64,000 nucleotides of DNA from Alkalidesulfovibrio alkalitolerans DSM 16529. Lineage in GTDB: Bacteria > Desulfobacterota > Desulfovibrionia > Desulfovibrionales > Desulfovibrionaceae. Positions 22,271 to 33,381 of this stretch are shown here, in pieces. The position numbers and the translations under genes were made by a program. Position 1 is the first letter of the stretch. Each line of letters opens with the position of its first letter. The DNA is taken from assembly GCF_000422245.1 (NCBI RefSeq), contig NZ_ATHI01000006.1, positions 1 to 64,000 on the forward strand. Reading direction: 5' to 3'. The notes beneath the pieces are model-generated. The model saw only the letters and a program-made list of their open reading frames with translations, was not told the DNA's origin and did not search any database.

Positions 22271-23110
22271 ATGTTGCCCAACACGTTCTGCCATCTGCCC
22301 GGAATAGGGGTGCGCACCGAGGAGAAGCTCTGGGCCGCGGGCGTCCTCGACTGGGACGCCTTTACCCAGGCCCACGGCCTCATGACCCCCCACCGCCACG
22401 CCCAGGCCGCCGCGCTCATCGACGAATCGCGCGAGCGCCTGGCCGCGGGCGACGCCGAGTTCTTCGCCGCGCGCCTGCCCGCCCAGGAGCACTGGCGGCT
22501 GTGGCCCCATTTCGCCCAGGCCACGGCCTACATCGACATCGAGACCACGGGCCTTGGCCGGGGGCTCGACCACATCACCTCCATCGCCCTGTTCGACGGC
22601 ACAAGCGTGCGCACCTACGTGCACGGCCGCAATCTCGAACGCTTCGAGGACGACATTCGCGCCTACAAGCTGCTCGTGACCTTCAATGGCAAGGCCTTCG
22701 ACGCACCCTTCATCGAGCGAGAGATGCGGATAACGCTGCCCAAGGCCCATGTGGACCTGCGCTATCTGCTGAAGCGGGTGGGGCTCTCGGGTGGGCTCAA
22801 GCGCTGCGAAAAGGCGCTCGGCCTTGGCCGCGACGAACTCGACGGGGTGGACGGCTACTTCGCCGTGCTGCTCTGGAAGCGCTTTCTCGACACCCGCGAC
22901 GAGCGGGTGCTGGAGACCATGCTGGCCTACAACGCCGAGGACGTGCTCTCGCTCGCCCCGCTTCTGCGCCATGCGGCCGAAAAGCTGCTGTGCGGTTCGC
23001 CCTTCGCGGCCCGCGTGGCCCTGCCCGACTGCCCGCCGTGCCAAAATCCCCACGAGCCCGACGTGGCCCTGGTGCGCCGCATGAAGGGCATCTATTTCAG
23101 GGGCCGCTAA
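22271..23110 (+). CDS. ribonuclease H-like exonuclease domain protein (YprB type)
   Basis: The product is 279 residues from the ATG at 22271; an ATG at 22262 would add three residues and neither has a strong ribosome site. An N-terminal helix-hairpin-helix-like segment (HLPGIGVRTEEKLWAAGV) precedes a DEDD-type nuclease fold: YIDIETTGLGRG with metal-binding D and E, LVTFNGKAFDAPFIEREM, and AYNAEDVLSLAPL. These place it in the YprB/RNase_H_2 group of putative 3'-5' exonucleases. The substrate is unknown. Confidence 0.82.
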   Translation: MLPNTFCHLPGIGVRTEEKLWAAGVLDWDAFTQAHGLMTPHRHAQAAALIDESRERLAAGDAEFFAARLPAQEHWRLWPHFAQATAYIDIETTGLGRGLDHITSIALFDGTSVRTYVHGRNLERFEDDIRAYKLLVTFNGKAFDAPFIEREMRITLPKAHVDLRYLLKRVGLSGGLKRCEKALGLGRDELDGVDGYFAVLLWKRFLDTRDERVLETMLAYNAEDVLSLAPLLRHAAEKLLCGSPFAARVALPDCPPCQNPHEPDVALVRRMKGIYFRGR

Positions 23111-23234
23111 CAGGCCGGTGAAAAAGTCTCATTTGCCGCGTTGCTGCGAAAAGTTCAAACCCTCGCGTATGCGAAATACGCGTCGGCCTTGAACTTTTCT
23201 TGCGCCTTGCATCTGAAGCTTTTTGACCGGCCTG
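23111..23234. repeat. palindromic intergenic repeat, MITE-like or bidirectional terminator (copy 1)
   Basis: The ends, CAGGCCGGTGAAAAAG at 23111-23126 and its near-complement (AGCTTTTTGACCGGCCTG) ending at 23234, match at 15 of 16 positions. Further in, GAAAAGTTCAA (23148-23158) pairs with TTGAACTTTTC (23189-23199), and the centre has GCGTAT/ATACGC symmetry. The whole 124 bp folds as one imperfect hairpin between two convergent genes. A related diverged copy lies at 41343-41449. It contains no transposase. Confidence 0.75.
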
Positions 23235-23347
23235 CAAAAGTGAGTTTCTCAACAGCCCCCTAATCCCCGGCGAACAGGCAGCCGAGCGAGAGCAGGCAGG
23301 GCGTTCGGAAATCTCCGGACGCCCCGCCCGTTTTCGCCCCTGGCCTT

Positions 23348-23776
23348 CTACCAGGGGCGGCCGACCATGATGTCGCGGATCTTTTCCTCGGTCTGCTTCT
23401 CCACGATGATCATTTTATGCGCCTTGGCGCTCTTGATCTTCTCGGAGAGCTTGTTCAGGTCCGCGGGCTTCTCCACGAAGTCCATGGCGCCGAGCTTCAT
23501 GGCCTCGATGCCCTTTTCCACGGTGGCGTGACCGGTGAGGAAGATGATCTGCGCTTCAGGCTGGTCGGCCTTGAGGGCCTTCAACGCCTCGATGCCGTCC
23601 ATCTTGGGCATCTGCAGATCCAGGATCACGGCGTCGAAGGACTCCTTGTGCGCCAGATCCAAAGCCTCGGCGGCCGAAGCAGCCGTGGCCACATCCATGC
23701 CCCTGCCTCGCATGCGTTCCGCCATGACCGACAGGAATTCGGGGTCGTCGTCGACCAGCAGCACTTTCTCAGACAT
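23348..23776 (-). CDS. response regulator, receiver domain only
   Basis: A 142-residue CheY-like protein: acidic pocket LLVDDDPEF, phosphoacceptor Asp53 in VILDLQMPKMDG, the switch region IIFLTGHATVEKG, and Lys in DFVEKPADL. A C-terminal helix of about 25 residues follows, with no output domain. AGGAG precedes the ATG at 23776. It is the last gene of the SulP and two-component operon and may act by protein contact or pass phosphate onward. Confidence 0.9.
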   Translation of the reverse strand: MSEKVLLVDDDPEFLSVMAERMRGRGMDVATAASAAEALDLAHKESFDAVILDLQMPKMDGIEALKALKADQPEAQIIFLTGHATVEKGIEAMKLGAMDFVEKPADLNKLSEKIKSAKAHKMIIVEKQTEEKIRDIMVGRPW

Positions 23777-23807
23777 GACATTTCTCCTTGATATAAGAGG
23801 GTAAGGA

Positions 23808-24488
23808 TTACGTGCGGGCCATGGACGGACAGGAGCAATTTCCGGTCTCGCCCAGTTCGAGCACGATTGAACCGTTTTCATTCAGGTACACGACACCGCC
23901 CGCCGTTTCGGCGAGTTCCGCGACCTCGGCCGCGAGGGGGTGGCCGTTCCATGCGTCGCGCTCCACGAGCAACTGAGCGCCCGAGGGAGTCGATGCGGCG
24001 CTCACTGTCAGCCGGGCCTCCTCTCCGGCCTGGGCCAATGCCATTTCTATGCAGCCAAAAAGGGCCTGCATGACGCGGAAAGGACTCGCGGAGATCATCA
24101 GCGGTTTGCTCGGCAGCGTCACGGATATCTTCGCCCCCTTGCGAGCCGCAAGCCGTGCGGAAAGATCGAGCAGCAGGGTGACGCTCTCGCACAGGTCGAA
24201 GGTCATGGCGGGCTTGTCCGCGCTGTGAGCGAAGGTGTTCATGTTCTTCACTATGAAGTCCGCTTTGCGTACTTGCTCCTTGACCCTGGAGGCCGTGGCG
24301 ACGACGCGGCCGGGATCGAGGGGGCGTTCCGCGCTCGCAAGGTGGGCGATGTCTTCCAAAAGCCCGGCGTTCTCATTGATGACGGCCAGGCAGTTCTTGA
24401 TGTCGTGCGATACCGAGGCGCTGATGCGCCCGAAAAAGGCCAGTCTTTGGAATTCGGCCGAGGCTGCGTTGGACGGCGCGCTGTTCAT
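23808..24488 (-). CDS. histidine kinase-like phosphotransfer protein with degenerate ATPase domain
   Basis: A 226-residue soluble protein. Residues about 12-75 look like a DHp dimerisation helix pair with an H-box (SASVSHDIKNCLAVINENAG, His28). The following region aligns in place with a HATPase domain but lacks a proper N-box (the segment reads ALFGCIEMALAQAGE) and has no visible G1 or G2 glycine boxes. It is therefore probably not an active kinase and may act like Spo0B, moving phosphate between receivers. It lies between two receiver genes, 3 and 31 bases away. Confidence 0.7.
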   Translation of the reverse strand: MNSAPSNAASAEFQRLAFFGRISASVSHDIKNCLAVINENAGLLEDIAHLASAERPLDPGRVVATASRVKEQVRKADFIVKNMNTFAHSADKPAMTFDLCESVTLLLDLSARLAARKGAKISVTLPSKPLMISASPFRVMQALFGCIEMALAQAGEEARLTVSAASTPSGAQLLVERDAWNGHPLAAEVAELAETAGGVVYLNENGSIVLELGETGNCSCPSMART

Positions 24489-24491
24489 GGC

Positions 24492-24860
24492 TCACGTCTC
24501 CTGCGTTTTCGTGGCCTCGTGGATCTTCTCTAGGAGAAGTTCGATGGGCACGGGCTTGACGAGGTAGAATGCCCTGCCCGCCTCTGCCGTCCCGGCCTTG
24601 AAATCGCGCATGGAGCCGTGGCCTGTCAGGAAAATGAAGCGCATTCCGGGTTGGATGTCCTTCAACTCGTGCATCAGGTCGATGCCGCCCATGCGAGGCA
24701 TTTTCATGTCAAGCACGGCAACGTCGTAGTGCTTGGATCGGGCGGCCTTGATGGCCGCTTCGCCGCTCAAGGCCCAGTCGGCGTCCATCCCTCGAAAGGA
24801 GAGGCGTTCCGCGAGCGCGGAGACCAGTTCTTCTTCGTCATCGACCAGCAGAACATGCAT
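24492..24860 (-). CDS. response regulator, receiver domain only
   Basis: A 122-residue single-domain receiver: MHVLLVDDEEELVSAL, phosphoacceptor Asp51 in VAVLDMKMPRMGG, RFIFLTGHGSM, and Lys in YLVKPVPIELL. No output domain is present. It starts 3 bases after the sensor kinase stop, so it is very likely that kinase's direct partner. Confidence 0.92.
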   Translation of the reverse strand: MHVLLVDDEEELVSALAERLSFRGMDADWALSGEAAIKAARSKHYDVAVLDMKMPRMGGIDLMHELKDIQPGMRFIFLTGHGSMRDFKAGTAEAGRAFYLVKPVPIELLLEKIHEATKTQET

Positions 24861-24863
24861 GGG

Positions 24864-26588
24864 CTACTCCTTTTTCGGCGGGCGCGTGGTCGGAAGATGC
24901 ACATGGAAGGTCGTTCCCTTGCCCACGGTGCTTTCGACCTCGATGCGGCCGCCGAGTTCCTGTACCAGGCCGTATGTGATGGACAGGCCCAGTCCTGTGC
25001 CGCCTTCTCCCTTTTTCGTGGAGAAAAAGGGCTCGAAGATGTGTCCAAGGTCTTCCTTGGGAATGCCGCAACCGTCGTCGGAGATGTGGACGACCACCTC
25101 GCCTTCGCCCGGAGTGATGTGGACGTTGAGGTGGCCTCCCTCGGACATGGCCGCGAAGGCGTTGTTGAAAATGTTGATGAATATCTGCTGGAGCTTGCCG
25201 TGGTCGCTTTCGAAAACCGGCACGTTTTCGTCGCTTTGTACGTTGATTTCGATGGACCGGAATTCGGCTTCCTTGTGCAAAAACTCCAGGCATTCCTTGA
25301 TGATTTCGAGAACGTCGACACTCTTGACGCTCATGTCGATGTGCCGCGCGAAGCCGAGGAGCCGCTTGGTTATCGCGCCGCCGCGCTCCACCGCGGCCAG
25401 GATGGAGTCCGCAAGCCCCATCAGGCGCTTGTCCTGGGCGTATTTGCCCTCGAAGACGAAGATGTCCTTCATCAGCCCCGCCTTTTCGCCGATGATGGCC
25501 AGCGGGTTGTTGATCTCGTGGGCGACGCCTGCGGCCAGCCGTCCGATGGAGGCCATCTTGCTCGCGTGTTCGGCCTGACGCAGGGCCTGGACGCGCCGCA
25601 GGTCGGCCAGATGGATGCGGTTGACGAGCATGGTGGCGACGCCGACGAGCACGAGCACCATGATGCCGATGCTGATGAAGAGGAAGCCGAGCAGGCTCCT
25701 GCGCGAGGAATGCCAGGAACTGAGCAGTTCGTCGCGGTCTTTGACGATGACCAGGACGAATGGGGTCCGGTGGATGTAGGCGTAGCCGATGCTCAACAGG
25801 CGCCCAGATTCCCCCTTGATTTCTATGACTTCACTGGATGCCGACCATGGCGGCAGGGGCAGGTCGATCGTCGTGAGCACGTCGCCATGATTGCGCGAGG
25901 GGGTCTGCAACACCCTGTCGCGGTTGATGATGAAGGCGTCGCCCCTGGAGGCGAGATAAAGTCCCTTGACTATCTGGTTGAAGCGATCGGTGTCGATGGT
26001 CGCGCGCAGGATGAAGAATTCGCCGCCGGGCAGGTCCTTGCGCACGGAAATGGAGATGTGCGGAACGCCGCGAAATCCCGTGGAAACCTCGCTGATGTAC
26101 GTTCCTTTTTGCAACGTCTTCTGGAACCAGTCCTGCTTGGAGTAGTCGCGGCCTAGCAGGTTGTAAGGGCCGACATAGTTCAGTTGCAGGCCATTGGCGT
26201 CGATGACCCCGATATCCACGAAGCCGCCGAAGCTTCCTTGCAGGTGGAGCAGAACATCCCACAGGCGGCTCTCGTATGCGAGATCCGGCATGGTGTTGTC
26301 GGCGGCGATGAACATGAGCGCGTGGAGGCGTTCGTCGAAGAAGGCGTCGATGATGCGCCGGGTGTTGGAGACCAGGCGCGAGGTTCTGAGAACGGTCTCC
26401 TGCTCCGCCGCGGTTTCGGTGATGGTGTAATCGATGACGGCCACGGCCAGAAGCGGCAGAAGGCTGACGCCAAGGGTGAGCAGGACCGCAAAGCGCCACA
26501 GTTTGCGGTAGTTGAAGAGACTTTTGAAATGCGACTTCATGTCGTCGCGGTTCCAAAAGGATGGCGTGATGTGATGACTGAGAGGCAT
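24864..26588 (-). CDS. membrane sensor histidine kinase with extracytoplasmic Cache-like domain
   Basis: The product is 574 residues: TM1 at about residues 32-51, a periplasmic Cache/PDC-like sensor at about 55-295 (with the LLGRDYSKQDWFQKTL and GDAFIINRDRVLQTPS blocks), TM2 at about 301-323, then HisKA with His357 in AAGVAHEINNPLAI. The ATPase domain has an N-box (NIFNNAFAAM), G1 (DDGCGIP) and G2 (GTGLGLSI). All kinase motifs are intact. GGGAG precedes the ATG. It lies between two receiver genes downstream of a SulP transporter. The ligand is unknown; an anion or a small organic acid is plausible. Confidence 0.92.
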   Translation of the reverse strand: MPLSHHITPSFWNRDDMKSHFKSLFNYRKLWRFAVLLTLGVSLLPLLAVAVIDYTITETAAEQETVLRTSRLVSNTRRIIDAFFDERLHALMFIAADNTMPDLAYESRLWDVLLHLQGSFGGFVDIGVIDANGLQLNYVGPYNLLGRDYSKQDWFQKTLQKGTYISEVSTGFRGVPHISISVRKDLPGGEFFILRATIDTDRFNQIVKGLYLASRGDAFIINRDRVLQTPSRNHGDVLTTIDLPLPPWSASSEVIEIKGESGRLLSIGYAYIHRTPFVLVIVKDRDELLSSWHSSRRSLLGFLFISIGIMVLVLVGVATMLVNRIHLADLRRVQALRQAEHASKMASIGRLAAGVAHEINNPLAIIGEKAGLMKDIFVFEGKYAQDKRLMGLADSILAAVERGGAITKRLLGFARHIDMSVKSVDVLEIIKECLEFLHKEAEFRSIEINVQSDENVPVFESDHGKLQQIFINIFNNAFAAMSEGGHLNVHITPGEGEVVVHISDDGCGIPKEDLGHIFEPFFSTKKGEGGTGLGLSITYGLVQELGGRIEVESTVGKGTTFHVHLPTTRPPKKE

Positions 26589-26618
26589 TGCCTTCTCCCT
26601 TCGCGTCCTGTGTCTGGC

Positions 26619-27836
26619 CTAGTCCTTGCGGGCGGCGTGGATCTTTTCGTTGGCCGCCTTGAGGGTTTCGGAGAGCTTGTCGATGTCCACGGGCTTTTGC
26701 AGATAGGCGAAGGCGCCGAGTTCCATGCACTGCTCCCGGTCGGCTTCCGAGCCGTGCCCCGTCAGGATGATGACCTCGATGGCCGGGTTGGTCTGCTTGA
26801 CGCGGCGCAGCACCTCGATGCCGTCGATGCCGGGCATTTTCAGGTCGAGGATCATGACCTCCGGCTCGTCGGCCTCGATCATCTCCAGGGCCGACTCGCC
26901 ATCGTATACCACAGCCGAGCCCATGTCGCGCATGAGCAGGCGTTCGGAGAGGGTTTCGACGAACTCCCGCTCGTCGTCCACGAGCAGCACCTTGCCGGGC
27001 AGCGTGAAGTCCGCGCGGCGATAGATGTCTGCCTGATAGAAGTCCTTGCCCACCTTGGTCTCCACGTCTTCCACGCCGGGCACGCTCTTGGCGATGCGGG
27101 CGAGTTCCTCCTTCAGCCGACCGAGCATGAGCACGTTTTTGTTGATGCTCAGCGTAATGTTTCCGTTTCGGGCCTCGACGCCGACCGTATGCCCTTCGCC
27201 CACGAGCACGGCCTCGACACGCGCTGCGAGCAGGAAGTCGGCTGCCGCCGCCCGTGATGCCTCGGTCACGGCCAGGGCCTCCCTGGCCGCGCTGCGGACG
27301 ATGATCGACCCGGCTTCCGCGATGGGCTTTTTGTCCATGGGCAATACCACATCATACAGGGCGCTGTCCCACGGATCCTTGAAGCCACACGCGACTTCGG
27401 CCCAGGCGGCGGCGTCCTCGTCCGCCTCGCGCAGTCGGCGCAAGGCCTCCTTTTCGGAGACGCCCGACTTGGCAGCCTCGCCCAGCCGGTACTCGGTGTC
27501 GGCCACGAGGCAAACGCGCAGTGCATGGGTCACGGTGCGCGGGGCGAGTAGGCTGGCGAAACCCGAGATCAACAGGCCGTCGTCCTGCATGGCCTGGGCG
27601 AGGGCGAGCTTGAGCCAGGCCACGGCGCGTTCCTTCTCATGAGTGAATTTGTTGAAGACCGACGTCTTGGCATGGAAGGCGCGCTGGATTTTGTCGGCGG
27701 ACACGCCGGCAAGCCGGGCCGCGTCCTGGCAGAGTGAGTCATCGTCGAGCAGTCGGCAGCCGAGATGATCCACGACCTCGCCAACGACCTGGTCCGCGGA
27801 GCAGTATGCGGCGGAGAAGATGGAAATGACGGACAC
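26619..27836 (-). CDS. cytidylate-kinase-like domain fused to a response-regulator receiver
   Basis: The product is 405 residues from the GTG at 27836, set by a strong AGGAGG 6 bases upstream. Residues about 3-200 resemble the cytidylate kinase-like family (SIFSAAYCSADQVVGEVVDH, then GLLISGFASLL), but the P-loop glycines are missing, so nucleotide binding is doubtful. Residues about 205-275 include a BON-like segment (RIAKSVPGVEDVETKVG). Residues about 282-405 are a receiver (VLLVDDEREF, Asp331 in MILDLKMPGIDG, LTGHGSEADREQ). It lies between the SulP and sensor kinase genes with gaps of about 30 bases. Confidence 0.82.
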   Translation of the reverse strand: MSVISIFSAAYCSADQVVGEVVDHLGCRLLDDDSLCQDAARLAGVSADKIQRAFHAKTSVFNKFTHEKERAVAWLKLALAQAMQDDGLLISGFASLLAPRTVTHALRVCLVADTEYRLGEAAKSGVSEKEALRRLREADEDAAAWAEVACGFKDPWDSALYDVVLPMDKKPIAEAGSIIVRSAAREALAVTEASRAAAADFLLAARVEAVLVGEGHTVGVEARNGNITLSINKNVLMLGRLKEELARIAKSVPGVEDVETKVGKDFYQADIYRRADFTLPGKVLLVDDEREFVETLSERLLMRDMGSAVVYDGESALEMIEADEPEVMILDLKMPGIDGIEVLRRVKQTNPAIEVIILTGHGSEADREQCMELGAFAYLQKPVDIDKLSETLKAANEKIHAARKD

Positions 27837-27865
27837 GGGATTCCTCCTTGATTCTCGCGCTTGGA

Positions 27866-29989
27866 CTAGGCCAGGCGGCAGACATTGGTCAGCGGACAAT
27901 TCTCCTCGCGACTGTCGCGATGGGCCTCGGCGTGGACGGAACACACGGCGCGATCCATGGTCGGATAGACGTGGTCGCGGCCGATCTTTTCGATGAGGTG
28001 GGTGCGTTCAAGAACCTTCATGACCGATTCATTGACGCCCGAAAGCGAGATGTCGATGCCCGCGCTGCGAACGCGGTCCACGAGCAGAGATAGAGTTTCC
28101 TCGCCCGAGGCGTCCATGTCGGCGATGCCCGATGCTGCGATGATGATATGCCTCAGATCCTTCTTGGCGCTCATGCGCGAGGTGATCTGGTCCTCCAGGA
28201 AGCTCGCGTTGGCGAAGAACAACGGGCCGTCGAACCGGATCAGGTCGATATAGGCGCACTCCTTGAGGCCGTGCAGGCCAGCCGAACGCAACGCTTGGTC
28301 CTCTGTGCGCGAGAGAGAGGTCACGGTGGGCCGCATGCTCTTGTACAGGAACACCGCCAGCGAAAGCGCGACGCCGACCATGATGCCCTTGTCCAGATGC
28401 GGGGCGAAGGCCAGGGTGCACAGGAACGAGATCAGGGCAATGACGCCGTCGTACCACTGTGCCTTCCAGGCGTGCACGATACCGGAAACGTTGATCAGGC
28501 CGATGACGGCCATCATGATCACCGCCGCCAACACGCTCTGGGGAAGGTGGTAGAGCAGAGGCGTGAAGAAAAAGAGAACGACGAGCACGGCGAGGCTCGT
28601 GAACACGCTGGAGAATCCGGTCTGCGCTCCGGCCTGAAGGTTGACGGCCGAGCGGGAGAAGGAACCCGAGGCAGGGTAGCTCTGGCCTATGGAGCCGAGG
28701 ATGTTGGCCATGCCCTGGCCGATGAGTTCCTGGTTCGGATCCAGCCGCTGGCCTGTTTTGGCGGCCATGGCCTTGGCGATGGAGATGGCCTCCATGAAGC
28801 CGAGCAGGGCGATGATCGCGGCGTAGGGGAAGAGCTTGAGGATGACAGGGATATCGAGGGCAGGAATCGAGAAGTCGGGCAGGCCGCTCGGAATGGAGCC
28901 GACGATGGCCCCGCCGCCTGTCATGAGCAGGCCGCGTTCGTCGATCGGCCTGTTGCCAACCCTGATTCTCCAGGTGCGGCCGTCGCCGGAGAGACCGGCC
29001 GGTACTTCACCCTTGGGATAGAAGGATAGTCCGCTTCCCTGATCCACCCCCTCGAAAAGCATCAGCCGCAGGCTCTCGCGGTGCAGGTGGGCCTCTTCCT
29101 GCAGTCGAGTCATCTCCACGGCGAGCACGTCGAGCTGATGCTTGACGTCCAGAACCAGCAGGCCGTCGCCCGAGGCTTGAGCCTGGTCGAGTTGGGCGTT
29201 CAGCATGGTTCTCTTTTCCGCCAGGGGTGTGACGCTCGTGACGGCGGTGTTGAAGCGCTGGACGAGTTCCACCGCCTCGGAGGACTGCACGGATGAAAGC
29301 GGCGCGCGGGTGTCGTGGTTGAAACCGAAGGCCCAGGAGATGAGCGTGGTCAGGGCCACGGCCACGAGGACGCCTGGAATTTTGGGCATGGTCTTTTTCA
29401 GGCCGAACATGAGCGCGAAGGCCAGCGCCCCCATCAGGAATGTTGGCCAGTGGGTGTAATTGATGGCCGATGAGACCACGGCCATGATCGTTTCGTAGTG
29501 GTGCTCGGCCGTGTCCACTGAAACGCCGAACATCTTGGAAAGCTGCGAAGTGGCGATGATGATGGCGGCCGCGTTGGTGAAGCCGCCGACCACGGGGTGC
29601 GAGAGGAAATTGACCACGAGGCCGAGCTTGAGCACGCCCAGAAGAAGCTGGAAGACGCCCACGAGCAGCGCCAGGAGGATGGCGTAGGCGATGTAGTGCT
29701 CGCTGCCCTGTGTGGCCAGCGGGGCGAGAGAGGCGGCGGTCATGAGCGAAACCACGGCCACCGGTCCGGTGGCGAGTTGTCGGCTGGAGCCGAAGAGTGC
29801 CGCAATCATCGGCGGTAGCAGGGCCGCATAGAGCCCGTAGTAGGCTGGCATGCCCGCAAGCTGGGCGTAGGCCATGGATTGCGGGATGAGCACCAGGGCC
29901 ACCGTGAGTCCGGCCAAGGCGTCGGCCCTGAGCGCCGACCCTCCGTACCCCTTGAACCAGTCGAGAAAAGGAAAGATTTTCGTCAGCAT
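27866..29989 (-). CDS. SulP-family anion transporter with STAS domain and large inserted loop
   Basis: An inner-membrane transporter for sulfate, bicarbonate or other anions, 707 residues. The SulP signature is clear: IPQSMAYAQLAGMPAYYGLY near residue 35, FGSSRQLATGPVAVVSL and SYPASGSFSRSAVNLQAGAQ. A STAS domain covers about the last 150 residues. Residues about 224-360 are an inserted hydrophilic, coiled-coil-like region between two membrane helices that normal SulP proteins lack. The ATG at 29989 has AGGTGG upstream; an ATG at 30004 overlapping the tetR stop (ATGA) is also possible. Confidence 0.92.
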   Translation of the reverse strand: MLTKIFPFLDWFKGYGGSALRADALAGLTVALVLIPQSMAYAQLAGMPAYYGLYAALLPPMIAALFGSSRQLATGPVAVVSLMTAASLAPLATQGSEHYIAYAILLALLVGVFQLLLGVLKLGLVVNFLSHPVVGGFTNAAAIIIATSQLSKMFGVSVDTAEHHYETIMAVVSSAINYTHWPTFLMGALAFALMFGLKKTMPKIPGVLVAVALTTLISWAFGFNHDTRAPLSSVQSSEAVELVQRFNTAVTSVTPLAEKRTMLNAQLDQAQASGDGLLVLDVKHQLDVLAVEMTRLQEEAHLHRESLRLMLFEGVDQGSGLSFYPKGEVPAGLSGDGRTWRIRVGNRPIDERGLLMTGGGAIVGSIPSGLPDFSIPALDIPVILKLFPYAAIIALLGFMEAISIAKAMAAKTGQRLDPNQELIGQGMANILGSIGQSYPASGSFSRSAVNLQAGAQTGFSSVFTSLAVLVVLFFFTPLLYHLPQSVLAAVIMMAVIGLINVSGIVHAWKAQWYDGVIALISFLCTLAFAPHLDKGIMVGVALSLAVFLYKSMRPTVTSLSRTEDQALRSAGLHGLKECAYIDLIRFDGPLFFANASFLEDQITSRMSAKKDLRHIIIAASGIADMDASGEETLSLLVDRVRSAGIDISLSGVNESVMKVLERTHLIEKIGRDHVYPTMDRAVCSVHAEAHRDSREENCPLTNVCRLA

Positions 29990-30000
29990 GGTCCCACCTG

Positions 30001-30618
30001 TCATGATTCGGTCGATTCATTCGAAGCGCAGCCGCTTCGTCCCTCGATCATCCGCCTGCACGAGGCCATGAGTTCCCCGTAGAGGGCTCCGGCGTCGTAC
30101 AGGTTGTTGGTCTTGAAGCGCACCAGGCCGTCGGCCATGGTAAAGAGGAGGAGCCCGGTCTTGCGGGGATTCACTTCAGGGTCCACGGAGCCATCCTCGA
30201 TCCCCCGGGCCACGGCGTCTTCGAAGATGTCGGCCACGGCGTTGTAGATGGCCTCCAGGGTCTCTCGGCAGACGGGGTTGCTGCGCGCGAGCTCGTAGGG
30301 GAAGGTGCGGTGCAAGAGCAGAAAGCGGCTTTCGAGCCTGCCCGCGAGATAGATGTAGAAGCTGACCGCGCCGAGTGCCATCTCCACGCCGTTTTCGAAG
30401 CTGGCGTCACTGAAATAGGTGTCGAACTCAGCCAGGATTCGCGACTTGATGTTTTCGAGCACGGCCAGGAATAAGCGTTCTTTGTTGCCGAAATGATAGA
30501 AGATCGTGCCTTCGGCCACCCCGGCCAATTCGGCAAGTTCGGCCGTGGAGGTGTCGCGAAAGCCCTTGTGGGCGAACAGCCAGGCTGCGTTGTCGATGAT
30601 CAGATCGCGTTTCTTCAT
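30001..30618 (-). CDS. TetR-family regulator of the SulP operon
   Basis: A 205-residue protein whose HTH covers about residues 5-50 (IIDNAAWLFAHKGFRDTST, then AGVAEGTIFYHFGNKERLF). The helical ligand domain gives no hint of its ligand. The ATG at 30618 is selected because AGAGG lies 2-6 bases upstream and MKKRDLI is a typical TetR start. A symmetrical operator overlaps the predicted promoter just upstream. The gene overlaps or adjoins the SulP gene, so it probably represses the whole operon including itself. Confidence 0.88.
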   Translation of the reverse strand: MKKRDLIIDNAAWLFAHKGFRDTSTAELAELAGVAEGTIFYHFGNKERLFLAVLENIKSRILAEFDTYFSDASFENGVEMALGAVSFYIYLAGRLESRFLLLHRTFPYELARSNPVCRETLEAIYNAVADIFEDAVARGIEDGSVDPEVNPRKTGLLLFTMADGLVRFKTNNLYDAGALYGELMASCRRMIEGRSGCASNESTES

Positions 30619-30641
30619 TCCTCTGCTCGTCAAAATTTGTA

Positions 30642-30657
30642 CTGAGTACTCACTCAG
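30642..30657. promoter_or_regulatory. candidate TetR operator
   Basis: CTGAGT (30642-30647) and ACTCAG (30652-30657) form a perfect inverted repeat around ACTC. The motif resembles TGAGT/ACTCA-type TetR operators and lies 24 bases upstream of the tetR start, just downstream of the predicted -10. Confidence 0.6.
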
Positions 30658-30860: not shown

Positions 30861-32465
30861 CTATTCCGAAAAGCCCGGCGGCAGGCCTTCGTAGTCCTCG
30901 TCGAAGACGAGCGCGCCGGGCTCCTTGGGCTTGAACTCCAGGCGCAGGCCGCGGGCCTGCGCCGCCTGGGCCGCGCTGCCCCGGCGCAGGCGGATGGCGT
31001 CTTTTGGCCGTACCACGATGGCCTTTTCGCCCGGCACCGGGCAGTAACGCTCGCAAAAGCCGCAGCCCGCGCAGCGCTTTTCGTCCACGTGCGGCACGGC
31101 CACGGGATTGCCGGGCTCGGGTTTCAGGTCCACCGCGTCGTAGGGGCAGACTTCGTCGCAGACCAGACACTTCTTCTTGTCCTCCCAGGCCAGGCATTTT
31201 TTGCGCACCACTTCGGCCGTGCCGATTTTGGCGAAGGTGCGCTCCTCGCCCAGGGGCAGGATGGCCGCAGTGGGGCAGGCCGGGGCGCAGGCGTGGCAGG
31301 CGGGATTGCAGAATCCGACGGCGGGCGTGACCACCGGGCTGAAGAGGCCGAGCCCTCCGGCCGCGAACCAGGCGGGCTGCAACGTGTTCGTGGGACAGGC
31401 CGCGGCGCACAGCCCGCAGCGCACGCAGCGGGCCAGGAAATCGTCCTCGGGAAGGCTGCCGGGCGGGCGCACCACGCCTGCTGGCCGTCCGAGCGCCGGA
31501 CCGGCGAGGCCGAGCACGGCCAGGCCCGCGCCGGTCGCGGCCCCGCCGATGATGGCCCGGCGCAGCGGCGAGAATCCGGGCGAGCCCGTGGGGGCGGTCG
31601 TGGCCGCGTTCCTACCCGCCCTGGGCATGAAGGATATGGCCCGCTCCGGACAGGCGTCGCGGCAGCGCAGGCAGGCGAAGCACTCCACATGGCGGGTGGC
31701 CGCGAAGTCTTGCCTTGGCCCGGGCTGAATGGCCCCGGACGGGCAGACGCGCGCGCAGCGGCCGCAGGCCGTGCAGGCGCTTGAGACGCGCCGCCGGAAG
31801 GGCGAGGCCAGGGCCAAAAGGCCGAGCCCGGCCCCGGCCGGGCAGAGCATCCGGCACCAGGCGCGGCGGACGAAGGCTCCCGCCCCGATGACCAGCGTGA
31901 AAAAGACCAGCACGAAAACGAGGGTGTCGTAAGCCGGCACCGGGATTTCGGCGTAGGCTAGGCCGAGCATTCCGGCCTCGCGGGCCAGCGGCGCGAAAAG
32001 ATGCAGTCCCAGGTCGGCCGCAAGGGCCAGGGGCGGCTGCACGGCCAGGCCGTAGAGCCGCGCGGCCAGGGGCAAGGGGGCGGCGGCGAAGGCCAGCGAC
32101 ACGCCGAACGCGGCGGCCGCGAGCATGGCCGCGAGCACGGCGAACTTGGGCCACGCGGGCAGGCGCGGCGGCGAGGTCCGGAAGTGGCGAAGCAGCCGGT
32201 CCGTGGCGTCGATGGTCGCGCCCAGGGGGCAGACGAAGCCACAGAAGGCGCGGCCGAGCACGAGTCCCGTGGCCAGCACGACGAGTCCCGGCGCGATCTT
32301 CACGGTCAACGAACGGTCGGCCAGGAGGGTGACGAGCGCGGCCGCAGGATCGAGCCGCACGAAGAGGTCACGGCCCGGCTGGCCCAGCAGGGCCTCGGCC
32401 GCGCCCAGAACCAGAAGGACGAAGGCGGCCAGGGAGACGGCCTGGACCGCGCCGCGCAGAGTCAT
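30861..32465 (-). CDS. NapH/NapG-like membrane polyferredoxin fusion
   Basis: The product is 534 residues. The N-terminal half has several membrane helices and two NapH-type CxxxCP motifs (FCGFVCPLGA near residue 75, WCRMLCPAGA near 205). Soluble ferredoxin domains follow with clusters CTACGRCARVCP, CFACLRCRDACP, CVRCGLCAAACP, CNPACHACAPACP, a CLVCDEVCP group and CAGCGFCERYCP. Between them a twin-arginine segment (RRAIIGGAATGAG) marks what is the separate NapG/MauM start in other bacteria. It likely carries electrons between the quinone pool and the periplasm. It starts one base after the DUF362 stop. Confidence 0.85.
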   Translation of the reverse strand: MTLRGAVQAVSLAAFVLLVLGAAEALLGQPGRDLFVRLDPAAALVTLLADRSLTVKIAPGLVVLATGLVLGRAFCGFVCPLGATIDATDRLLRHFRTSPPRLPAWPKFAVLAAMLAAAAFGVSLAFAAAPLPLAARLYGLAVQPPLALAADLGLHLFAPLAREAGMLGLAYAEIPVPAYDTLVFVLVFFTLVIGAGAFVRRAWCRMLCPAGAGLGLLALASPFRRRVSSACTACGRCARVCPSGAIQPGPRQDFAATRHVECFACLRCRDACPERAISFMPRAGRNAATTAPTGSPGFSPLRRAIIGGAATGAGLAVLGLAGPALGRPAGVVRPPGSLPEDDFLARCVRCGLCAAACPTNTLQPAWFAAGGLGLFSPVVTPAVGFCNPACHACAPACPTAAILPLGEERTFAKIGTAEVVRKKCLAWEDKKKCLVCDEVCPYDAVDLKPEPGNPVAVPHVDEKRCAGCGFCERYCPVPGEKAIVVRPKDAIRLRRGSAAQAAQARGLRLEFKPKEPGALVFDEDYEGLPPGFSE

Positions 32466-32466
32466 C

Positions 32467-33381
32467 TCAGAGCGCGATCCGTTGCACGTTCAGCGCGGCC
32501 ACGTCCATGCGGCCAAGCCCCCGCTCGTGCGCCAGCCGCAGATGCTTGACCTGCCGTGCCTCGAAGCTGCGGCCGTACCACTCGAAGGCCTCCACGGCGT
32601 AAGCGTCGGCGGCCACGATGTCGGCCGAGGCGATGACCGTGTCGGCCTTGACGACCTTGCCGGGGCCATATGGGCCGCCCGTGGTCAGGACGTATATTCC
32701 GTCCACGACGGTCAAGGCCGCGCGCAGCTTGGTGTTCAGGTCCACGATGGCCGTGTCCAGATCGTAGCGCCAGTGCATCACGCCCCGGTTCGAGATGAGG
32801 CCCATCATGCCCTTGAGGCCCAGGCTCACGCCTGTGGAGCCGTGCGATTTGGCCGTGGGCGCGGCGATGATCACGTCGGCCTCAAGCGCCTCGCGCAAAA
32901 AGGCGTTCGCGCCCATGGAGAGCGCGCCGGGAATGTCCTCTTCGCGGAAGAAGCGGCTGGCCGTGGGCGCTTGCACGATGTCGCGGCCGATGTCGCGGCA
33001 GGCCTCGCGGATGCCCGAGCGCACCATGCACTCCTCGGGCTGCGAGAGGGGGTTGTCCATGACCAGGATGCTCGACGCGCCCGCGTCGCGGCACATCTCG
33101 GCCAGGGCCGCCACCACCTCGGGGTGGGTGTTGGCGCCGTAGTCCGCTTCCGTGGCGAAGCTCATGTTGGGCTTGATGAGCACCCGCTGGCCGGGCGCGA
33201 CGAAACGTTTCATGCCGCCGAGCATTTTGACGGCCGCGTGCGTCGCGGCCCTGGCTTCTCCAGTGGCCACGGCGATGTCCGGCGTCGCGGCCAGGGCCGG
33301 TCGCGGGTCGATGAACGGCGCTCCGGCGGCCAGCCACAGCGCTCCGGAGAGTTGCCATTTGAGAAATTCCCTGCGGCGCAT
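32467..33381 (-). CDS. DUF362-domain protein with Tat-type signal
   Basis: The product is 304 residues. The N-terminus RRREFLKWQLSGALWLAAG followed by ALA looks like a twin-arginine signal, so the folded protein is probably exported. The mature part carries the DUF362 pattern: RVLIKPNMSFATEADYGANT and VIIAAPTAKSHGSTGVSLGL with GLKGMMGLI. DUF362 proteins are often found beside iron-sulfur proteins; their activity is not established. Here the polyferredoxin gene follows by one base, so the two probably work as a pair. Confidence 0.85.
   Translation of the reverse strand: MRRREFLKWQLSGALWLAAGAPFIDPRPALAATPDIAVATGEARAATHAAVKMLGGMKRFVAPGQRVLIKPNMSFATEADYGANTHPEVVAALAEMCRDAGASSILVMDNPLSQPEECMVRSGIREACRDIGRDIVQAPTASRFFREEDIPGALSMGANAFLREALEADVIIAAPTAKSHGSTGVSLGLKGMMGLISNRGVMHWRYDLDTAIVDLNTKLRAALTVVDGIYVLTTGGPYGPGKVVKADTVIASADIVAADAYAVEAFEWYGRSFEARQVKHLRLAHERGLGRMDVAALNVQRIAL

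Follow-up and report, generated by a model that had tools for sequence, protein, structure and literature searches.

Gene content and organization of the locus

The window analyzed here, a 64,000-nucleotide stretch of Alkalidesulfovibrio alkalitolerans DSM 16529 (contig NZ_ATHI01000006.1, positions 1 to 64,000), contains a cluster of seven genes encoding a TetR-family regulator, a SulP anion transporter and five proteins of a putative phosphorelay (Table 1). All seven frames are open with plausible starts on the minus strand, and the gaps between them, from TetR to Rec2, are -4, 29, 30, 3, 3 and 31 bases. An earlier note on this DNA had described seven close-packed genes in the order TetR, SulP, kinase-like/receiver fusion, Cache sensor kinase, receiver, degenerate kinase and receiver, and that layout was confirmed. 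Two of its labels were amended: the fusion exists (referred to here as CK-Rec), but its kinase-like domain resembles cytidylate kinases (Cytidylate_kin2) and not histidine kinases, and the degenerate kinase (HPtHK) is degenerate in its ATPase part while its histidine box is intact. As the note had also said, the three receiver proteins carry no DNA-binding output, since no such domain was recognised in CK-Rec, Rec1 or Rec2 in the Pfam scan.

Table 1. Features of the SulP/phosphorelay cluster, in window coordinates (aa, amino acids)
Feature	Position	Strand	Basis
Predicted palindromic operator, probably that of TetR, 19 bases upstream of the TetR start codon	30638..30657	.	
TetR-family regulator, 205 aa	30001..30618	-	TetR_N E 1.7e-16 (Pfam)
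SulP anion transporter with STAS, 712 aa	27866..30004	-	Sulfate_transp E 2.7e-106, STAS E 6.6e-16 (Pfam); TIGR00815 above cut-off
SulP insertion, residues 239-363, between two Sulfate_transp matches; presumably periplasmic	28916..29290	-	
SulP C-terminal CPLxxxC stretch	27869..27898	-	CPL in 23/23 aligned SulPs
CK-Rec, cytidylate-kinase-like probable pseudokinase (residues 1-~170) and receiver (282-395, phosphoacceptor D331), 405 aa	26619..27836	-	Cytidylate_kin2 E 6.3e-12, Response_reg E 4.1e-29 (Pfam); model pLDDT 91.9; residue counts
Cache sensor histidine kinase, 574 aa, H357	24864..26588	-	dCache_1 E 8.4e-14, HATPase_c E 7.1e-29, HisKA (Pfam)
Rec1, single-domain receiver, 122 aa, D51	24492..24860	-	Response_reg E 1.7e-22 (Pfam)
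HPtHK, kinase-like without ATP-site motifs, 226 aa, phosphoacceptor H28	23808..24488	-	42 sequences; pLDDT 91.3; Z 15.1
Rec2, single-domain receiver, 142 aa, D53, conserved tail ending in Trp	23348..23776	-	Response_reg E 1.5e-32 (Pfam)

Conservation of the gene set and exchange of the transporter

Loci for comparison were taken from GTDB contigs (the best 80 of 519 candidates) and from further genomes, and the mapped set comprised the window, L034-L053, L054-L133 and L164-L199 minus the duplicates L164, L171, L172, L186, L196 and L197. After removal of these six duplicates there were 97 distinct loci encoding CK-Rec, the window included, which form a sample and not a census. All seven genes occurred in order in 29 of the 97 loci, SulP to Rec2 in 40, and the kinase, Rec1 and HPtHK in 61. 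Because the same order recurs in 29 distinct loci, the seven-gene set is more than a chance arrangement; the earlier note had made its reading depend on the genes being kept together in related genomes, and they are. Among 38 relatives the fusion was found in 11. Nine relatives have a SulP that shares 60% identity or more with the window SulP over almost the full length, and seven of these nine carry the operon.

The type of transporter differs between loci. A sulfate-type transporter on the same strand within 7.5 kb was found at 84 of the 97 fusion loci, with SulP at 65, DASS at 15, CitMHS at 11 and TSUP at 2, some loci having more than one, and five of the 13 loci with no such transporter have less than 1 kb of upstream sequence. 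In the control set of 17 loci with receiver-only matches (236 kb), none of SulP, DASS, CitMHS or TSUP was found. The other transporters were recognised in Pfam as CitMHS with TrkA_C, as Na_sulph_symp next to a CBS protein, and as TauE, and no STAS match appeared in the Pfam scans of the DASS, CitMHS and TSUP versions.

A paralogous cassette was also observed in related genomes (L045-L053), consisting of a TSUP (TauE-like) gene, a small protein, a sigma-54 activator, a Cache kinase and receivers, often together with an HPtHK-like gene and a receiver-kinase; the CK-Rec fusion was found in none of these nine loci. The cassette of L052 also has a small protein matching Nitro_FeMo-Co.

Link to sulfate reduction

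The genome of the window encodes dsrA (E 8e-180) and is thus a sulfate reducer by gene content. Across 297 Desulfobacterota genomes, dsrA was present in 34 of 35 fusion carriers in comparison to 111 of 262 non-carriers, a genome being counted as a carrier when its match reached 250 bits; weaker matches, mostly to stand-alone paralogues, were left uncounted, and at most eight candidates were scored per genome. The sulfate-reducer context that the earlier note had assumed is therefore borne out, and the 35 carriers span 17 family labels. All 12 further carriers, reached through the GTDB contig loci, have a dsrA match, which is over the cut-off in 11 of them, and five of the 12 are titled LCP-89, Electryonea or Zixiibacteriota. 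On the Zixiibacteriota chromosome bin25 (L094:6763-9095), dsrA and dsrB, the latter assigned by its sulfite-reductase domains, lie just upstream of the CK-Rec and relay genes in divergent orientation.

Residue conservation in the relay proteins

In the Cache sensor kinase H357, N472 and the glycine-box residues are conserved among 75 relatives, and the kinase looks intact. Within its sensor domain, D125, Y138, Y149, W154, S166, R173, P176, H177, R195, D217, Q228 and T229 show at least 92% conservation among operon-type kinases, and the same 12 positions are also conserved in six TSUP-linked kinases. A small dianion such as sulfate is a plausible ligand. The weak solved relatives of the Cache domain include DctB (E 0.054). 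Elsewhere in the same genome, contig C26 (L201) carries a group of several receivers and two additional Cache kinases, in which most of the conserved sensor motif is present.

For HPtHK, the only Pfam match was a weak one to HisKA (E 0.0011, below its cut-off), with no HATPase_c match. H28, N32 and H88 do not vary across 42 sequences; H28 and N32 are both present in 42 of 42, in comparison to 0 of 42 for the G2-box pattern and 1 of 42 for DxGxG. In its model (pLDDT 91.3) helices 7-52 and 59-89 form a two-helix DHp-like part bearing H28, and the model superposes on histidine kinases, the best match having a Z of 15.1 and a root-mean-square deviation of 3.3 over 179 aligned residues. The 50 matches listed in the fold search were histidine kinases, and neither ChpT nor Spo0B was among them, which does not count against a relationship to either. 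Since the histidine is kept and the ATP-site motifs are gone, HPtHK resembles a phosphotransfer protein.

The acidic pair, the phosphoacceptor aspartate and the lysine are kept at 90% or more in both Rec1 (62 sequences) and Rec2 (51 sequences), and the last residue of Rec2 is Trp in 47 of the 51. As the kinase looks intact, the receivers retain the residues of their phosphorylation sites and the histidine of the ATPase-dead protein is invariant, the five-component phosphorelay which the earlier note had put forward is plausible.

The likely start of CK-Rec is the GTG at 27836. The match of its N-terminal part to Cytidylate_kin2 (PF13189) scored 46.4 bits against a gathering score of 28, and a profile search gave 3hdt ('putative kinase') and 3fdi ('uncharacterized protein') as solved relatives. 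All matches listed in the fold search with the AlphaFold model (44 sequences, pLDDT 91.9) were receivers, so that the relationship of the cytidylate-kinase-like part is drawn from the Pfam match and the profile matches 3hdt and 3fdi. Of 44 fusions, 41 have Cys at position 12 and all have R117 and D162, and position 15 of the P-loop-like stretch is E in 19, D in 14 (acidic in 33) and K in 1. The corresponding stretch of the stand-alone paralogues in L054 and L099 reads RGSYSRGK, its lysine aligning with position 15 of CK-Rec. With E or D in place of this lysine, the cytidylate-kinase-like part is probably a pseudokinase. In the receiver part D287, D288, D331, T359 and K381 are present in 44 of 44.

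Other members of the cytidylate-kinase-like family were seen in the survey. Stand-alone paralogues lie near the same transporter clusters at L054:14506-15345, L083:7159-7956 and L099:3953-4786, those of L054 and L099 keeping the P-loop-like lysine. At L179:1462-2970 (minus strand), beside sigma-54 and kinase genes, the domain starts a 503-aa protein whose C-terminal part is membrane-like by eye, which represents another fusion type.

The SulP transporter

The insertion at residues 239-363 of the SulP protein is taken to be periplasmic on the basis of the known SLC26 topology, the hydropathy run being coarse. The transporter motif reads AYYGLY, and the equivalog cut-offs for BicA and DauA were not reached. 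According to passages of PMC5840216 (Front Microbiol 2018), the SulPs of clade Ci, which belongs to sulfate reducers, are about 710 aa long, have an insertion relative to Rv1739c and carry A or S first in PXYGLY; the window SulP, with its 712 aa, its insertion and AYYGLY, is like them when judged on these features and not on a tree. Clade Ci belongs to the clade rated by those authors as likelier sulfate carriers, and the same source calls its transporter predictions speculative. The window SulP is predicted as a probable importer of sulfate.

In Desulfobacterium autotrophicum, as given in the same source, HRM2_40360 (SulP) and HRM2_40290 (DASS) are both high at 15 mM sulfate, and the two tag numbers are near each other. 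The words 'kinase', 'two-component', 'response regulator', 'TetR' and 'cytidylate' do not occur in the main text of PMC5840216. A second, distant SulP-family gene of the same genome (L202, contig C31), with an 856-aa open frame, lies outside the operon.

Operator, transcription layer and flanking sequence

The predicted operator is the sole match with up to three mismatches to the operator motif within the window. With up to four mismatches, the motif was found in the upstream regions of 26 of 32 loci (0.07 in shuffles), and it had been composed after palindromes were seen in these first 32 loci. Of 17 held-out upstream regions, 13 had the motif (0.01 in shuffles), the hold-out loci coming from related genomes. 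Three sites with up to three mismatches occur in the whole genome, and the dyad core is kept at 30638-30657 alone. A wider TetR regulon was rejected on this ground, and TetR therefore looks local. In the 97 loci TetR was found near CK-Rec in 51, a sigma-54 activator in 17 and both in none, when about 9 would be expected, a difference that carries no strict probability since the loci are related. Transcription control thus seems to be exchangeable while the relay genes stay.

On the 3' side, no terminator was found after Rec2, and the promoter-like and terminator-like sites in the region were not above shuffles (2 vs 1.3 and 4 vs 6.3, respectively). An imperfect palindromic repeat with 26-nucleotide arms, 81% complementary, lies just 3' of Rec2 at 23106-23258 and has about 40 further places in the genome at 77-92% identity, and it is therefore regarded as one of a REP/MITE-like family. 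On the upstream side, at 30861-33381 (minus strand), are genes for a 534-aa protein with ferredoxin-like cysteine motifs and for a DUF362-like protein. A similar pair adjoins the relay genes in the Zixiibacteriota locus L091. A wider operon including the 4Fe-4S and DUF362-like genes was considered and dropped, as the pair recurs in L091 alone of 95 loci; one weak DUF362 match was seen in L038 in the same survey.

Proposed mechanism and alternative explanations

We propose that the cluster is a conserved control operon for the uptake of sulfate, or of a related oxyanion, in dissimilatory sulfate reducers, acting through a phosphorelay and protein contact, a reading to which we give an even chance. 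The parts, their residue conservation, the gene order, the transporter swapping, the dsrA link and the operator were established by comparison; from these we infer the direction of phosphate flow, the ligand, the transported ion and the final target. The Cache kinase would sense a small periplasmic anion, phosphorylate itself on H357 and hand the phosphate to Rec1; the ATPase-dead HPtHK would take the phosphate on H28 and give it to Rec2, to the receiver of CK-Rec or to both; and Rec2, through its tail, and CK-Rec, through its pseudokinase part, would exert their effect by contacting the transporter or its partner proteins. As a separate layer, TetR on its one operator would set the amount of the operon, a sigma-54 activator doing so in other lineages. 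The parts of this proposal differ in strength: that sulfate reducers have a conserved link of this kind with sulfate-type transport is highly probable, for the topology of the relay the balance is about even, and an output at the protein level instead of at transcription falls slightly short of even.

The strongest competitor, which we nevertheless consider unlikely, is transcriptional control of the kind proposed in PMC11887813, where in analogy to PhoRB the kinase would sense external sulfate and change transcription. The route could run through a DNA-binding regulator whose gene lies outside the cluster, or by way of receivers that bind TetR or the sigma-54 activator. Besides the published model, the TetR gene and conserved operator of the operon, and the 17 loci with a sigma-54 activator instead all speak for it; in some of these 17 (L085, L188-L191 and L194) SulP comes after a kinase and an activator of receiver type. 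A plain PhoRB-like picture is argued against for the window cluster because its three receivers have no DNA-binding part, and the relay genes stay in place when the transcription regulator is swapped. The target proposed in the earlier note, with a phosphorylated receiver binding the STAS domain of SulP and so opening or closing the transporter, would agree with receivers that have no other outputs and with SulP, with its STAS domain, being the commonest partner. Since the fusion and relay genes are also found beside DASS, CitMHS/TrkA_C and TSUP, for which the Pfam scans gave no STAS match, STAS as the sole target was down-weighted and is now improbable, while in the SulP versions STAS could be a target. 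Taken as a whole, the interpretation of that note is partly supported.

Least probable of all is that another anion, such as bicarbonate, a dicarboxylate, molybdate or sulfite, is both moved and sensed, and that the co-occurrence with dsrA reflects shared ancestry and lifestyle. The substrates of the SulP and CitMHS families are varied, as far as can be taken from parts of PMC5840216 and from the Pfam names, and the dicarboxylate sensor DctB among the weak relatives of the Cache domain points the same way. Against these stand the AYYGLY motif, the length and the insertion, which fit the clade proposed as sulfate transporters, the unreached BicA and DauA cut-offs, the swapping among four families with sulfate-type members, and the dsrA link in several phyla.

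Several observations weigh against the control operon as we propose it. The same Cache motif is found in kinases at loci without the fusion; the ligand need therefore not be sulfate, the argument from the motif to sulfate as a shared ligand is weakened, and the motif marks a wider kinase subfamily. HPtHK could be a phosphatase. Eight fusion loci have no sulfate-type transporter despite more than 4.8 kb of upstream sequence. Two relatives (G034 and G038) have a SulP 64-65% identical and no fusion, and no other operon gene is adjacent to the SulP copy of G034. The association of dsrA with the fusion (Fisher p 6e-11) is uncorrected for descent or phylogeny, and one genome (G077; 94% complete, 380 contigs) carries the operon start and has no dsrA or aprA over the cut-off.

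The proposed operon puts names to the components of a candidate chain by which sulfate reducers would sense and limit sulfate uptake. The chain occurs with four families of transporter and goes together with dsrA in several phyla, and a phosphorelay containing a pseudokinase-fused receiver is predicted. A further and doubtful extension is that the pseudokinase senses an intracellular nucleotide of sulfate activation (AMP, ADP or adenosine 5'-phosphosulfate), or a reactive sulfur species via the conserved Cys12, and gates the fused receiver. If this were true, the relay would weigh the sulfate of the periplasm against the speed at which sulfate is activated in the cell, and would represent a two-sided feedback controller of sulfate respiration across several phyla.

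Comparison with known systems

The association of SulP, TetR and two-component genes, and an operator, is already published (PMC11887813, Sci Adv 2025). As presented in the relevant parts of that paper, a cluster in which SulP is accompanied by two-component genes and a TetR repressor is widespread in Desulfobacteraceae and occurs in Dv. salexigens, with a 16-bp palindromic operator upstream and sulfate suggested as the effector; similar Cache kinases occur in SulP and DASS clusters, and the matching cluster type was detected by proteomics. The regulatory model proposed there draws the PhoRB analogy with WalR-type regulators and has SulP formed at high sulfate; the relevant parts of the paper give no test of it at the level of phosphotransfer. 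The window cluster is similar in having SulP next to TetR, a palindrome upstream, a sensor kinase with an N-terminal Cache domain and response regulators. It differs in that its regulators have no DNA-binding domain, one of them being fused to the cytidylate-kinase-like probable pseudokinase, and in that its ATPase-dead kinase suggests a relay. No regulator of WalR type, in the sense of a receiver with a DNA-binding domain, is present here, and the published wording may refer to receiver similarity alone. The main text contains none of the words 'cytidylate', 'phosphorelay', 'receiver' and 'TauE', and the relay anatomy, the pseudokinase fusion and the wider spread are absent from its relevant parts. 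PhoR/PhoB-type systems differ likewise from the window cluster, which has no response regulator bearing a DNA-binding domain.

In Desulfovibrio vulgaris, passages of PMC4641369 describe a sigma-54 operon, DVU2957-DVU2967, with DVU2956. Judged by gene content, it probably corresponds to the TSUP form of the kit seen in L045-L053, a type with a TSUP gene, a sigma-54 activator, a Cache kinase, receivers and mostly an HPtHK-like gene, which differs from the window cluster in that L045-L053 are without CK-Rec. Nothing on the SulP relay cluster was found in the relevant parts of PMC2702500 and PMC10102598.

The DctB-DctA pair is similar in that a Cache sensor kinase has as its neighbour a transporter for the class of ligand it presumably senses. 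DctB passes its signal to a sigma-54 regulator that binds DNA, whereas the window relay would signal through receivers without an output domain. For HPtHK the closest known type is that of ChpT and Spo0B, which have kinase-like DHp helices with a phosphoacceptor histidine and an ATPase-like domain without ATP binding. HPtHK similarly keeps the phosphoacceptor histidine and loses the ATP-binding motifs, and it differs from both in having an H-D/E-x-x-N box and in sitting in a transporter operon.

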